From Veillonellaceae bacterium (lineage in GTDB: Bacteria; Bacillota; Negativicutes; Veillonellales; Negativicoccaceae): DNA of 64,000 bases. This document shows positions 5,102-23,097 of the stretch, in pieces. The stretch spans positions 1 through 64,000 of the forward strand of contig JALELM010000007.1 in NCBI GenBank assembly GCA_022771805.1, read 5' to 3'. The notes below the pieces were generated by a model. The model ran no database searches and had not been told where the DNA came from. It worked only from the letters and a program-made list of their open reading frames with translations. Position 1 is the stretch's first letter, and every line of letters begins with the position of its first letter. Position numbers and translations under genes: made by a program.

Positions 5102-5860
5102 ATGCGGGCATTTTTGCGAAAAAATTCGGGCGGCGAATTATATGATTATCATATGCAGGCGGCTTATGAGGGGTTTCGTGCGTTGGGCGAAACGCAGTTT
5201 TATGCAACGGTGCATGCGTTGCGGGGTAATGATCCGGCGGCAGTCATTGTCGGCAGCTATGCGGATTTGAACTGGCTTTTTCAGGACTGGGGTATTACGA
5301 CGCCGACCTTGGATTATCCCGAAGAATTACACCCGTTCCTGGGGCGAAAAATTTGGACATCCACACTCTCTACCGTTGTCAACGACCCGAAAAAGTGGGG
5401 GATTTTTATCAAGCCGTTGACGGAGACGCGGCGTTTTACAGGGACCGTTCTGGCGGAAACGAAGGATCTCGTGAAACTCGGGGGCATGGTTACCGATCTC
5501 GATATTTGGTGCAGCGAGCGGGTGGATTTTCGCGCGGAATGGCGTGTCTATGTCCGTGACGGCGAGCCGATCGGTCTGCATTGGTATGCGGGCGATTGGC
5601 GCGTGCAGCCGGAGATTGCCGTCGTCGAGAGTGCGGTTGCGGCGTATCGCTCCGCGCCGCGGGGATATGCGATCGATTTCGGCGTCGATGCGAAGGGAAG
5701 AACGCTGCTCGTCGAAGTAAATGACGGCTACGGTCTGGGCAATTACGGCTTGCGGCCGCAGCCGTATGCGGAGCTTCTGGCGGCAAGGTGGGAGGAAATA
5801 ACCCGGGAAGCGGCAGCGGCATATGCGGCCAAAGTCCAAGCCGAAGCAGAAAAGAAATAG
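5102..5860 (+). CDS. ATP-grasp domain protein (DUF4343-like)
   Basis: This 252-aa protein appears to be a compact ATP-grasp ligase of uncharacterised substrate. The evidence is the C-terminal half, where acidic and Asn residues in a DFGVDAKGRTLLVEVNDGYG-type metal-binding motif (about residues 193-214) follow a FRAEWRVYVRDGEPIG strand pair near 140. The end KVQAEAEKK is a charged tail. It starts directly after crcB (TGA, then ATG one base later), so the two are probably co-transcribed. Similar proteins are annotated DUF4343/ATP-grasp. The substrate cannot be told from sequence. Confidence 0.75.
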   Translation: MRAFLRKNSGGELYDYHMQAAYEGFRALGETQFYATVHALRGNDPAAVIVGSYADLNWLFQDWGITTPTLDYPEELHPFLGRKIWTSTLSTVVNDPKKWGIFIKPLTETRRFTGTVLAETKDLVKLGGMVTDLDIWCSERVDFRAEWRVYVRDGEPIGLHWYAGDWRVQPEIAVVESAVAAYRSAPRGYAIDFGVDAKGRTLLVEVNDGYGLGNYGLRPQPYAELLAARWEEITREAAAAYAAKVQAEAEKK

Positions 5861-14704: not shown

Positions 14705-15643
14705 ATGATGCAAATATATTCTCAGCTTACCGAGCTGGTCGGCAAGACGCCGCTTCTGCGTTTGGGACGCTATAGCAGTCGGCGCGGTTTGGCGGCCGAG
14801 CTCGTTGTGAAATTGGAAAAGCAGAATCCGGCGGGATCCGTGAAAGACCGCATCGCGTTGGCGATGGTGGAAGAAGCGGAACGAACCGGGATGTTGCGCC
14901 CGGGGATGACGATCGTGGAGCCGACCAGCGGCAATACGGGTGTCGGTCTGGCTTTTGTCGGCGCGGTAAAAGGCTATCGCGTCATTCTTATCATGCCGGA
15001 GACGATGAGCGTGGAGCGGCGCCAATTGGCTCAGGCGTACGGCGCGGAAATTATTCTGACGCCCGGCGCGGCCGGCATGCAGGGAACGGTCGATAAAGCG
15101 CGTGAAATGCAGGCAGCGGATGACAATGTGTTCATTCCGCAACAGTTCACGAATAAGGCGAATCCGGCAATGCATGAACGAGCCACGGCGGAAGAGATTT
15201 GGGAGGATGTCGGCGGCGAGCTGGCGGCATTTGTCGCGGGTGTCGGCACGGGCGGTACCGTCACGGGTGTTGGGCGCGGCCTGAAAGCGCATGACGCCGC
15301 AATCCGGATCGTGGCGGTGGAGCCGGCCGCATCGCCGCTGCTTACGGCGGGGACGGCGGGACCGCATGCGATTCAGGGGATCGGCGCCAATTTTGTCCCG
15401 GAAGTGCTGGATCGGAATGTGTATGATGAAGTGCTGACGGTGACGAACGAAGATGCGATTGCCGCGATGCGGGCGCTTGCACGGGAGGAAGGACTCCTTG
15501 TCGGGATTTCGTCCGGGGCGGCGGTCGCCGCCGCAACCGAGTTGGCGAAGCGGCCGGAATTTGCCGGCAAACGCATTGTCGCTCTCTTGCCGGATACCGG
15601 CGAGCGGTACTTGTCTACAGGCCTTTTCGCTGTAAATAAATAA
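14705..15643 (+). CDS. cysK: Cysteine synthase A (O-acetylserine sulfhydrylase)
   Basis: This PLP enzyme (312 aa) makes cysteine from O-acetylserine and sulfide. The PLP lysine is in [11 protein letters not shown] near residue 45, and the substrate loop [13 protein letters not shown] follows near 75. The phosphate-binding glycines are in [14 protein letters not shown] near 180, and [10 protein letters not shown] is near 265. The operon ends with it and a strong terminator follows. Confidence 0.95.
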
Positions 15644-15647
15644 TAAT

Positions 15648-15676
15648 AAAAAGACTTCCCGAAGGAAGTCTTTTTT
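15648..15676. terminator. Bidirectional terminator between cysK and M18 aminopeptidase
   Basis: AAAAAGACTTCC (15648-15659) pairs with GGAAGTCTTTTT (15664-15675) around CGAA. A- and T-runs flank it, and the two adjacent genes converge on it. Confidence 0.92.
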
Positions 15677-15683
15677 TGTGCAA

Positions 15684-17054
15684 TCAATTGCTTTCAAAGA
15701 ATGCTTTGTAGGCGAGGAACGCCGTATAGGCATCGGATTTTTCCACCAATTCGAGCGGTGCGTGCATGCTGAGCATGGTGACACCGCAATCGACGACTTC
15801 GCAGCCCCAGGCCGCCAGGTACAAGGCGATCGTGCCGCCGCCGCCTTGGTCGACTTTGCCCAGCTCGCCGATCTGCCAAGGCACATTGGCGGCGTTGAAG
15901 ATCCGCCGTACCTTGGCGATGAACTCGGCGTTGGCATCGTTGCTGCCGGACTTACCGCGCGAGCCGGTATACTTCGTCAGAACGATGCCGTGCCCGGTGA
16001 GCGAGGCATTCGTCTTTTCCATCGTATCGGGGAAAGTCGGGTCGAACGATGCCGTCACGTCCGCCGAAAGAATTTCCGAGTTGCGAAGCGTGTCGCGCAG
16101 CGAGCGATGGTCTTCATGGCCTTGTAACGCCAACAAATCCATAATGAAATCGGGCACATAAGAAGAGGTCACGCCGGTGTTACCGTAGGAACCGATCTCT
16201 TCTTTGTCCGCAAAGAGCGCGACTTGTGTTTTTGCACCGGGCTCCGCCGCAAGAATCGCGGTGAGGTTGCCGTAGGAGCAGACGCGGTCGTCGTGACCGT
16301 GACCGAGGATGAAAGCGCGGTCGAGTCCGACGTCGCGAGCATTGTCGGCCGGAATGATTTCCAGTTCCGCCGTGGTGAAATCTTCATCTTCAATGCCGTA
16401 TTTTTTGCCGAACAGGGCGAGGACGGTTTCGCGTGCACTCTTTTTCCGTTCGCCGTGACCGCCGATGACCGGCAGCAGCATTTCACCGGTGACCGCTTCA
16501 CCGACTTTTTTCTGCGCCTGTGTCTGACCGAGGTGCGGCAGGATATCCGTGATGTAGAGGACGGGATCGTCCGGATCCAGACCGATTTCCACATCGACTA
16601 CACTGCCGTCTTTGCGGACGACGACACCGACCACGGCCAACGGTCGGCATACCCACTGGTATTTTTTGATGCCGCCGTAGTAATGCGTCCGGAAAAAGAC
16701 CAGGCCGTCTTTTTCATCGAGCGGATTCGCTTTCAGATCCAGCCGCGGGGAGTCGATATGCGAGCCGACGAGCTTCAAGCCCTTACGCATATCTTCTTTG
16801 CCGATGACGGCGAGAATCACGGACTTGCCTTTGTGATCGAGATAGACTTTGTCGCCGGCCTTGAGTTTGCGATACGCCGACAACGGCCGGAAGCCGGCCT
16901 TTTCCGCCTGACGAATGATTTCACGATTGGCCAGACGCTCCGTGCGAGCCCGGTCGAGAAATGCCTTGTACTCCTCGGCATAGGCGAGGCAGGCTTTGCG
17001 TTCTTTAGCCGTCCAGCGTTGCCAGACGGGTTTGGTACGACTGTATGTTTCCAT
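15684..17054 (-). CDS. M18 family aminopeptidase
   Basis: This dinuclear-zinc aminopeptidase of family M18 has 456 aa from this start. Metal-site motifs are LVGSHIDSPRLDLK near residue 80, the central FILGHGHDDRVCSYGN, DKEEIGSYGNTG around the catalytic glutamate, and the late VPWQIGELGKVDQGGGGT. The family releases N-terminal (often acidic or neutral) residues from peptides in large cytoplasmic oligomers. I chose ATG 17054, with AAAGGATG upstream on the minus strand, because the longer in-frame extension is GC-rich and unlike the family. The tauE-like gene lies upstream on the same strand 62 bases away. Confidence 0.92.
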   Translation of the reverse strand: METYSRTKPVWQRWTAKERKACLAYAEEYKAFLDRARTERLANREIIRQAEKAGFRPLSAYRKLKAGDKVYLDHKGKSVILAVIGKEDMRKGLKLVGSHIDSPRLDLKANPLDEKDGLVFFRTHYYGGIKKYQWVCRPLAVVGVVVRKDGSVVDVEIGLDPDDPVLYITDILPHLGQTQAQKKVGEAVTGEMLLPVIGGHGERKKSARETVLALFGKKYGIEDEDFTTAELEIIPADNARDVGLDRAFILGHGHDDRVCSYGNLTAILAAEPGAKTQVALFADKEEIGSYGNTGVTSSYVPDFIMDLLALQGHEDHRSLRDTLRNSEILSADVTASFDPTFPDTMEKTNASLTGHGIVLTKYTGSRGKSGSNDANAEFIAKVRRIFNAANVPWQIGELGKVDQGGGGTIALYLAAWGCEVVDCGVTMLSMHAPLELVEKSDAYTAFLAYKAFFESN

Positions 17055-17887: not shown

Positions 17888-18179
17888 ATAAAATCCTTCC
17901 CGTGAAGTGGTATGAAGTATAAAACTATTGTAACACAATTGAATAAAAACGCAGGGAAGATCGGGAAATAAGGATTCTTTTTTATTTCGGCAACAATCCG
18001 TCAAAAACTTATCCGAAAATTTGGTGGAGAGTGCGCAGCAGGCGGCATATCTTTGGGCGAAACGGGCGAAGGTGTTCGCGCGGATGATGCGGCGCAGTAT
18101 CATCGTTACCGGGCAGCGGGGCGGGTACATGATGGGATATATCCGATTCGGTTAGTTGTTGAGGAACAACAAAAAACGA

Positions 18180-19278
18180 AAAGAAAGTACAATATATCCG
18201 ACGGGCGGATTTGCTATTGTTATGATGTAATACCGGAAGACACTACACAGACAAAACAAAACGCAATAGGGCGACAAGAAAAGAGGCGACCACTCGGGAA
18301 GTGGGTTTTAAACCACATTATCGAGCCGGTCGTCTCTGATGCCATCACTATACACGATGTATTGCGCAGCGTCAAACAGTAACAGCCGGGATTGCTTTTG
18401 TATGATATGATCCCGGAAGAAAATACAAAAGCAGCTGCCACAGAGCGGGCTTTAACCGCCTGAGTGGGTCAGCTGCTTTTGATACCATCACTATACACGA
18501 TTTGTTGAAAAATGTCAAAGATGCTGATGAGAATGTCTGTTTCCAAGAAAGCCATAAACAGCGACAGCCGGAATTGATTTTGTATGATGTTATCCAGAAG
18601 AAAGAATGCAACAACAGTCCGGCCTAAGTAGCCATAATGCTACCTTAAAACCAGCGACTGTTGCTGCATCTGATGTCAGAATATCAGATTTATTGCGCAG
18701 TGTCAAGGGTGATGGTGGGAGCGTCTATTTCCAATAAAGCCGTAAACAGCGAGAGCCGGAATTGATTTTAGACACCAAGCCGATGTTGGATGACCGTCAT
18801 CTCGGAGTGCGTACATGACTTGCAATCCGTATAAAGAAACGGGATAACGGGACGTTTTTACTACGATACACAAAGTACGCAAATAAAAATTGCTGAGTCA
18901 TTATCAGCATCGTACGCCGGGAAAACAACCGTCGCCAACGATGCTGATGAACTCAGCAATTCTTCTACCATCAGTGTAGAGGAAATGCTGCAACATGTCA
19001 AGCCCGAAGAATGGATAGTGAGATGCGTCTTGAAGAAACGGGCGAACGGGACGTTCTACTATGATTCACAGGCAACAAAAATAGAAGCTGCTACCTGGCT
19101 CAAACCAGCCGGGGAATATAATTCCGCCGTAACTGATACCTCGATAGCAACTTCTTCTACCATCAGTGTAGAGGAAATGCTGCAACATGTCAAGTCCGAA
19201 GATCGGCCGCATGACGGTAACGGGACATTTGTACGTATCGGCTCGGTCTACGTATCGGCTCAACCTATGGTAAAATAA
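18180..19278 (+). repeat. Array of five diverged hairpin-bearing repeats with decayed coding motif
   Basis: Five units share the same layout: a YD-containing lead, a long imperfect hairpin with arms unique to each unit, and a tail coding ITIHDLLxxVK or a variant. Arm pairs are 18283-18291/18328-18336, 18427-18437/18470-18480, 18608-18619/18656-18667, 18888-18898/18951-18961 plus 18903-18913/18938-18948, and 19084-19093/19145-19154. The tails end in GTCAA at 18371, 18514, 18702, 18997 and 19189. Units 4 and 5 share 43 identical bases (18960-19002 and 19152-19194). Translated tails read IHDVLRSVK, IHDLLKNVK, ISDLLRSVK and VEEMLQHVK (twice). Frames are broken by stops and by a one-base shift near 18854. 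I do not recognise the family. Confidence 0.75.
18985..19278 (+). pseudogene. Remnant of repeat-protein gene, last two units
   Basis: This open frame (97 codons from an internal ATG) holds the two best preserved units, with EEMLQHVK occurring twice about 64 residues apart and a KKRANGTFYYDSQ segment between. Upstream the same reading continues in frame to about 18852, where one extra T separates it from a matching KKRDNGTF segment in another frame. Older units upstream contain in-frame stops. No ribosome binding site precedes the ATG, so I treat it as the tail of a decayed gene. It could still be expressed as a short peptide. Confidence 0.45.
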
Positions 19279-20711: not shown

Positions 20712-23097
20712 ATGAGCACCATCAAGATTGCTCTGGCGGGCAACCCGAACAGCGGTAAGACCACGATGTTCAATAACATCACGGGCGCACGGCAACATGT
20801 CGGCAACTATCCCGGGGTCACCGTGGAACGTAAGGAAGGCCGCAAACATTTCAACGGCACGGAGATGGTTTTCATCGACCTGCCGGGAACGTACAGCCTG
20901 ACTGCCCGCTCGCTCGATGAAGTGGTGGCACGTAACACCATCATCAATGAAGAACCGGATGTCCTCGTGAATGTACAGGACGCATCCAATTTGGAACGAA
21001 ATTTGTATCTCACGGCACAGCTCGTGGAGCTCGGCGTTCCGACGGTCATCGCCCTGAACATGACGGATGTGGCGGAGCGCATGGGCATCCGGATCGATAT
21101 CCGGAAACTCTCCGAGCGTTTGGGGGTCACGGTAGTGCAAACTGTCGGCAATCAGAATCGCGGCACGCAGAATCTCCTGCTCGATGTCGCCCGGGCGGCA
21201 CAGGAGCGGCAGACACCGCAAGTCCGGATTGATTACGGGCCGACACTGGAACGTTTAATCGGTTTGTTGGAAGAAAGTATTCGCAAGCATACGGATGTCG
21301 AGTACCCGATCCGCTGGCTGGCAATCAAATTGCTGGAAAATGACAGCGAGGTAGTCGAAAAGCTGAGTTTGCGAAAGGGAATGGAAGACGTGTTGCATCT
21401 GGCGCAACGCTTACGTGAAGCCATCCCGGCAACGATGAATCCGGAATTCGTCTTTGCAGAAAAGCGCCACCAATTTGCAGTAGAAGTATTCAATTATGCC
21501 GTCACGGTAGCCGATCCCGCGGCGGAAACCGTGTCGGATCGAGTCGATCGCATTCTGACACATAAAGTCTTCGGCCTGCTTATTTTCGCCTTCCTGATGT
21601 GGGTGATGTTCAACGCGGTCTTTTACGCTCGGGGCGTACCCGCAGGATTGGCTGGATGCCCTCATCGGCGATTTCGGCACTTGGCTGGGCACGGTGTTGC
21701 CGGAAGGACAGATCCGATCATTGGTCGTGGACGGCATGGTCGGCGGGGTCGGTGCGGTACTGAGTTTTCTGCCGCTGATTTTGATCTTATTCATGGGAAT
21801 TGCCATTTTGGAAGACAGCGGCTACATGGCGCGGGCGGCATTTTTGCTGGATCGGCTGATGCGCGCCGTCGGTTTGCACGGGAAATCGTTCATTCCGCTG
21901 CTCCTCGGGTTCGGCTGCACGGTACCGGCCGTCATGGGAGCGCGTACGCTCGACAATCCGCGTGACCGCATGGTGACGATACTCGTTGCGCCGCTGATGA
22001 GTTGCGGCGCGCGCTTGCCGGTCTACACCCTGCTGATCGGCGCCTTCTTCACGGAGCAGTGGGCGGGAACGGTACTTTTCGGTATTTATATGTTCGGTAT
22101 CCTGCTGGCGATCGTGCTGGCGATGATCTTCCGGAAGTTCGTTTTTCCGGGCGAGACGGAGCCGTTTATCATGGAAATGCCGGAATACCACATGCCGACG
22201 CTGAAGGGCGTTCTCATTCATATGTGGGAACGGGCGGTACTCTACTTCAAAAAAGCGGGGACATTTATTTTGGCGGCCTCGATTGTCGTCTGGTTTATCA
22301 CCAGCTACCCGAAAGAAGTGCCGTACACGCAAGATTATGACGCGCTGCGGACACAGACGGAGACGACATTTACTGCCGCTACGGCGGAATTGCTGGCGCC
22401 GTTGGGACTGCAAGCCGTTGCGGACAGCGCGGAGTTGGCGGCGGTGAAGGAGCGGATCGAAACACTGGCCGCCGAGCACGCAGAAGCGGCGGCAGCGGCG
22501 GAGGAAGAAGACAACGCGGTCGAACGGGAGTCGTTGGCACGGACATTCACCGCCTTCGGGCGGGAATATCCGTTGGCCCTGCAGGCGGCTGCGAACGACA
22601 ACCCGATCCTCTACCCGGTGGCGCTGCAGTACTACGGCCTCGAACGGGAACGCGCTGCAGCCTTGGCCGACATCGAGCGGGCGGAAAAGGCGGACGCGCT
22701 TGCCGGCAGCTATGCCGGCCGTTTCGGCCGTTTCGTGGAACCGGTCATCCGTCCGCTCGGTTTCGATTGGAAGATCGGCGTGTCGCTGGTTGCCGCTCTG
22801 ACGGCGAAAGAAGTACTTGTCAGCTCGTTGGGGACAATTTACAGCCTGGAAGCGGACGAGGAAGACGACAGCGCATTGCGGGATCGCATTGCAGCGGATG
22901 AGGCCTTTGATCCGTTGGTGGCGATCAGCCTGATGATTTTTGTCCTGCTGTACTGTCCCTGCCTGGCGGTACTTGCCGTAATGCGGCGTGAGACGAACTC
23001 CTACCGCTGGCCGGCATTCGTCTTTGCCTATTGCACGGGACTGGCGTGGCTCTGCTCCTTTGTGGTGTATCAGGGCGGCCGCTTGTTGGGATTCTGA
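20712..23097 (+). pseudogene. feoB: Ferrous iron transporter FeoB, frameshifted as sequenced
   Basis: FeoB is the membrane Fe(II) transporter with an N-terminal GTPase. The first frame (from 20712) holds G1 GNPNSGKTT, G2 YPGVTVE, G3 DLPGTYSL and G4 NMTD, then the first membrane segment. At TTTT 21621-21624 the reading shifts. Dropping one T joins it to the frame ending at 23097 and restores a continuous protein of about 794 aa with AYPQDWLDALIGDF across the join. The second part has SGYMARAAFLLDRLM, PALLGFGCTVPA-like and GCGARLPVY segments. An Ala/Glu-rich insert lies at about 22440-22530. Whether the shift is a sequencing error, phase variation or true loss cannot be told here. Confidence 0.85.

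Follow-up and report, generated by a model that had tools for sequence, protein, structure and literature searches.

An array of five predicted antisense small RNA genes related to LPD3 modules of phage polyvalent proteins

Between positions 18272 and 19193 of contig JALELM010000007.1 (Veillonellaceae bacterium, assembly GCA_022771805.1) lie five hairpin units whose arms pair within each unit and are unrelated between units, which raises the question of what kind of element this is. We examined it within the first 64,000 nucleotides (nt) of the contig, hereafter the window. The original prediction had described the five units and had offered three explanations: a structured RNA family with covarying arms, a repeat-protein gene with hairpin-forming spacers, or palindromic mobile DNA. 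The array was borne out, as were two arm pairs that had been singled out (18426-18437/18470-18481 and 18887-18897/18951-18961). The first explanation proved right. The locus is predicted to be an array of five small RNA (sRNA) genes on the minus strand, giving compact RNAs of about 60-90 nt. On that strand each unit presents a sigma-70 promoter, a gap of 7-9 nt, a hairpin of 56-80 nt and a U-run:

18272..18375, minus strand: predicted sRNA gene 1; -35 TTGACG at 18375-18370, 17 nt, -10 TATAGT at 18352-18347, hairpin 18337-18282, U-rich end
18417..18518, minus strand: predicted sRNA gene 2; TTGACA-17-TATAGT, hairpin 18481-18426 with arms AAAAGCAGCTG/CAGCTGCTTTT
18597..18706, minus strand: predicted sRNA gene 3; TTGACA-17-TATTCT, hairpin 18670-18605
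18876..19001, minus strand: predicted sRNA gene 4; TTGACA-17-TACACT, hairpin 18964-18885 with a second inner stem of 11 base pairs (bp)
19073..19193, minus strand: predicted sRNA gene 5; TTGACA-17-TACACT, hairpin 19155-19083, followed by UAUUUUUGUUG

These promoters are near consensus (TTGACR, a 17-nt spacer, and TATAGT, TACACT or TATTCT), and that of gene 1 scored 12.6 bits with a gap of 9. The strand had been misread in the original prediction: the RNA, with its own promoter and U-run, is assigned to the minus strand. The plus-strand frames had been described as broken, which was the case for units 2 and 3; those of unit 1 and units 4-5 are still partly open.

The source of the units was indicated by a DNA search of the same genome, which found two more copies, one on contig C7 (L002) and a remnant on contig C18 (L003). 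L002 sits directly after the Pfam domain LPD3 inside an intact gene of 3026 codons. Its stem is a perfect 14 bp and its reading frame is open; hence, the hairpin is not a decay product. The folded LPD3 domain spans about 115 amino acids and occurs in open reading frames (ORFs) of up to 9186 codons. Within the class it was detected in 41 of 380 genomes; elsewhere in the phylum, a few genomes from other classes also have it. The full device (promoter, hairpin and U-run) follows the domain in 59 of 61 LPD3 loci. The intact giant genes L036, L037 and L038 carry the device 2, 2 and 1 times, respectively, only at LPD3/BECR-like tails and never on the sense strand, and about none was found in codon shuffles. 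The explanation by a repeat-protein gene with hairpin spacers was therefore half right, in that the hairpin lies in a coding linker of intact phage genes. Iyer et al. 2017 (PMC5512222) regard polyvalent proteins as presumably packaged and injected and predict PBECR domains to be RNases. Among PBECR3 domains within giant ORFs, the promoter was present in 7 of 7, and no convincing device was seen at stand-alone PBECR3 (14) and PBECR4 (17) genes. The best structural matches of the LPD3 model were BECR RNase toxins (VIA-align Z 5.6 for 6cp9, 5.2 for 7m5f and 4.3 for RelE 1wmi). A tblastn search of phages or plasmids with LPD3/PBECR3 proteins found nothing, nor did one scan of viral contigs.

The shared lead and tail of the units were confirmed, and a different reason for their conservation emerged. 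The tail had been considered to be conserved mainly at the protein level. Read on the minus strand, it gives TTGACA, 17 nt and TATACT, and the conserved lead supplies the U-run of the sRNA. The apparent protein motif DLLxxVK is the promoter read backwards (GTC-AA = TTGAC). Indeed, in 14 tails defined by the protein pattern alone, the valine of 'VK' was encoded by GTC in all 14, against a baseline of 16% elsewhere (chance about 6e-12). Over the 61 LPD3 loci, the antisense promoter score had a median of 11.3 versus 6.8 in control windows (p 2e-29), and the sense-strand score of the same stretch was 5.6. The codon register of the promoter was constant in 45 of 49 distinct LPD3 tails, and the codon beneath the -35 was nearly always NNC, followed by AA, irrespective of the residue. 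The stem follows the -10 at 3-12 nt across loci and at 7-9 nt in the window, so that it begins where transcription should start. In the 12 nt after the stem, T made up 56%.

The hairpins were also far in excess of chance. In 43% of the 61 LPD3 tails the stem score reached at least 10; for control windows the figure was 4%, and for codon shuffles 1.2%. Among non-Watson-Crick stem pairs read on the antisense strand, G.U outnumbered A.C by 56 to 11, versus 71 to 75 in control repeats (Fisher p 1e-6). At inner stem positions, counted without the four outer pairs and the innermost pair, the ratio was 35:7 in embedded copies and 26:3 in the set of orphans and other tails. Because stem mismatches in the antisense RNA are G.U and rarely A.C, the structured strand is the minus strand; a sense-strand RNA was ruled out by this asymmetry. 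We folded 92 of the RNAs and obtained a mean z of -4.6, the antisense strand being the more stable in 82. Most form one long hairpin, in which a lower, a middle and an apical helix can be distinguished. In the window, gene 3 has a P1 helix of 15 bp and gene 4 folds at -45.1 kcal/mol with a z of -6.6 (RNAfold).

Covariation was strong. RNAalifold on a MAFFT alignment of 18 related sRNAs gave 16 pairs, 12 of them with compensatory changes, and paired cells came to 89.9% versus 39-42% in slid controls. In a second alignment, derived from covariance model R1 and therefore fitted to the structure, 21 of 21 modelled pairs covaried, with 261 double-change cells versus 74 in shuffled data. R1 was built from four sequences of other genomes and none of the window. 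It found units 2, 1, 4 and 5 (E 5.8e-8, 2.4e-6, 2.9e-5 and 6.6e-5, respectively), every one of them on the minus strand, and had no further match in the 64 kb; unit 3 was absent from its matches at E<0.1. Model R2, which has four window units among its members, added unit 3 (E 1.4e-12) and matched units 1, 2 and 5 at E 5.9e-11, 6.6e-14 and 2.4e-15, respectively. A weak R2 match at 15637-15688 on the minus strand (E 0.014) is probably an ordinary terminator. The original prediction had named arms without complementarity in intact homologous genes, or a lack of covariation in relatives, as grounds for abandoning it; intact genes retain the complementarity, and the covariation is as described above. 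Taken together, these findings describe an LPD3-associated antisense sRNA family: a sigma-70 promoter, 3-12 nt, a covarying hairpin and a U-run, antisense to an LPD3/BECR tail. None of the 4227 covariance models of Rfam gave a relevant match to the window region and 15 loci, and literature searches found no report of this sRNA.

The outer arms diverge freely, and inner hairpins recur within subgroups, as in the L149 units (GGGG-GAATTGGA-CCCC-GGCGG). L149, L161, L148 and L162 belong to another module, with the tail ..GKLIYANKxKA...EEDLV, an unnamed domain and an antisense device of its own; the recurrent inner hairpin of this module type is GGGGGAATTGGACCCCGGCGG. In addition, an antisense hairpin follows a PBECR3-like match (5359-5494) in L116, a polyvalent gene of a Helicobacter himalayensis prophage. 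Helicobacter jhp1044-like proteins show similar antisense hairpins, which R2 misses and which the sigma-70 model is unsuited to judge.

Remnants of a polyvalent gene lie before the window array:

18023..18092, plus strand: remnant of a phage polyvalent-protein gene (SAQQAAYLWAKRAKVFA), 70 nt, which the intact gene on contig C7 (L037) matches at 93% identity
18090..18250, plus strand: apparent decayed C-terminal end of an LPD3 domain (YHRYRAAGRVHDGIYPIRLVVEE...YDVIPE) in ORF 18053-18382, judged visually against the LPD3 proteins of L006/L007

Moreover, the 189 nt around gene 5 (19016-19204) are 85% identical to a stretch of the polyvalent gene resident on contig C7, and unit 5 is close to the sRNA of that gene. 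In three relatives, the genes flanking the array, TauE/SafE-like and cupin-like as named from their sequence, are directly adjacent without it. Consequently, the window array is an insertion in this lineage. Further along the window, feoB is seemingly split at 20712-23097 into overlapping ORFs 20712-21965 and 21694-23097, by a frameshift or a sequencing error.

A covariance model search over related genomes, which the original prediction had proposed, gave R2 matches in 73 of the 380 genomes. Orphan copies and tandem arrays exist in chromosomes without the phage gene, and sRNA arrays also occur in genomes G242 and G243. The complete genome G002 has seven sRNA genes, including homologs of gene 1, located between ordinary chromosomal genes. 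This genome has no LPD3, PBECR3 or PBECR4 match (a PBECR5 search was empty and uninformative), and its sole match to the giant protein is at an sRNA remnant. Between genomes, paired orphans were 84-93% identical in the hairpin and near random in the flanks, and the promoter hexamers were nearly invariant except in L003, the damaged copy on contig C18 (-35 CTGGCA). Ordinary neighbouring genes of the window's genome (G000) and G002 are 67-71% identical. Only the promoter, hairpin and U-run are conserved between genomes, and homologous blocks between loci stop exactly at the -35 and the U-run. Non-coding copies show compensatory changes, for example GTGG/CCAC to GCGG/CCGC in the homologs of unit 1. 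The L003 remnant lies near an apparent tRNA-Ser gene, a common phage attachment site. In genome G009, six R2 matches of identical score (L206, E 2.9e-4) are possibly carried by an insertion sequence.

We propose, as the somewhat more probable explanation, that the five antisense sRNA genes are phage-derived antidotes to RNase-like modules, kept by the host as orphan immunity RNAs. Each sRNA would be transcribed from its own sigma-70 promoter, start at the foot of the long hairpin and end at the U-run. Its source would be a phage cassette whose coding sequence for LPD3 or a related BECR-like domain, part of a giant and probably virion-injected polyvalent protein, harbours the sRNA gene in antisense orientation within its 3' end. 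The RNA, made constitutively in the lysogen or once phage DNA enters, would most likely be the antidote to its own RNase-like module, neutralising it in a type I-like manner, by pairing with the mRNA, or in a type III-like manner, by binding the RNase. Orphan copies may then have been retained by the bacterium as immunity RNAs. The anatomy of the genes, their strand, the covariation, the link to LPD3, the orphan copies and the empty site are well supported by sequence comparison; expression, the toxicity of LPD3, the antidote role and the mode of neutralisation are what we infer. An antidote role would best explain the sRNA because a strong promoter is tied to a toxin-like module and the sRNA is yet kept without that module. 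The freely diverging outer arms would fit antisense pairing, and the recurrent inner hairpins hint at protein recognition. As a further thought, the apical hairpin might serve as an anticodon-loop decoy.

Several observations weigh against this proposal. The BECR-like RNase fold of LPD3 is only weakly supported by modelling, since the Z scores are middling and no Foldseek match was obtained at E < 1e-3. By the stem rule, the full device was found at only some of the seven PBECR3 domains within giant ORFs (at least 3). The stem of gene 1 has one A.C mismatch. The profiles that detected the orphans contain the promoter, so that the search favours intact promoters, and horizontal spread can mimic selection. 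Finally, the window array could represent a phage gene whose decay is recent and has not yet reached the sRNA genes.

In a rival reading, the sRNA is a mere cis-antisense regulator that silences the polyvalent gene in the lysogen, by way of RNase III or by interfering with transcription, and the chromosomal orphans are functionless relics of decayed phage genes. The position antisense to toxin-domain mRNA, the strong promoter of constitutive type, the polyvalent-gene remnants in the window array and the damaged -35 of L003 would all agree with it. We nevertheless regard it as unlikely, though worth serious thought, because intergenic host orphans keep promoter, stem and U-run amid diverged surroundings, show compensatory changes and G.U over A.C, and occur as tandem pairs and arrays. 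That the sRNA gene is itself mobile, as a very small non-autonomous element of promoter and hairpin, is improbable: the exact ends of the homologous blocks and the six identical weak matches in G009 speak for it, but a spreading element should have shared sequence, and the arms of the units are unrelated, with the device at the same place and in the same codon register in 59 of 61 LPD3 loci. Palindromic mobile DNA, the third of the original explanations, is not favoured.

Still less credible are DNA-level recombination hairpins, attC-like, that would shuffle BECR domain cassettes. The hairpin does stand at the 3' end of a domain cassette that some relatives have and others lack (L037 versus L038), and its structure is on one strand; however, one would not expect a recombination site to have a 17-nt-spaced promoter, a start 7-9 nt ahead of the stem and a U-run, and single orphan genes are conserved without cassettes. 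To ordinary decayed coding repeats with chance palindromes we give practically no credence. Units 1, 4 and 5 are still partly readable as a coding tail, but chance palindromes and coding constraint were ruled out by the codon shuffles, control windows and codon choice, together with the promoter and covariation tests.

The original interpretation was thus supported in part, and missed the antisense strand, the promoter in the tail and the source in the LPD3 module of phage polyvalent proteins. The findings reveal a predicted sRNA gene hidden in the 3' end of these modules, and suggest, in a form that can be tested, how toxin-like modules might be tolerated when no immunity protein is present. 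They also caution that a seemingly conserved protein motif such as DLLxxVK can be an antisense promoter. Tentatively, and with more doubt than confidence, we suggest that orphan hairpin RNAs derived from phage RNase modules and gathered in chromosomal arrays give sequence-specific, RNA-only immunity against virion-injected toxins. If so, orphan arrays would correspond, at the RNA level, to the poly-immunity gene arrays known from polymorphic-toxin systems and would be a new form of RNA-based phage immunity.

Among known systems, polyvalent proteins carrying PBECR and LPD3 domains are those of Iyer et al. 2017 (PMC5512222), and it is their genes that house the embedded sRNA genes; a text search of that paper turned up no palindromes, inverted repeats or RNA structure, the hairpin hits displayed are protein hairpins, and the paper describes no sRNA. 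Type III systems (ToxIN, CptIN, TenpIN) likewise have an RNA partner of an endoRNase and repeated RNA units. Their repeats, however, precede the toxin on its own strand and share one promoter, whereas here each unit is antisense, 3' of the domain and under its own promoter, and the domain is LPD3/PBECR rather than ToxN-like. Type I toxin-antitoxin pairs such as txpA/RatA and bsrG/SR4 have a 3'-overlapping antisense RNA. As in these pairs, a separate structured antisense sRNA gene with its own promoter and terminator covers the 3' part of the toxin gene; this overlap is found at the embedded loci, and the window array has lost the domain body. Unlike the small hydrophobic peptide toxins of type I, the toxin-like part is here a folded RNase-like domain of a giant phage protein. 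The open frame encloses the whole sRNA gene, different copies have unrelated arms, and there are orphan arrays. Rickettsia palindromic elements are palindromes that occur within reading frames and between genes, and their copies share sequence. The present palindromes also stand inside frames and between genes, but their arms are unrelated, and a promoter and a U-run flank the stem.
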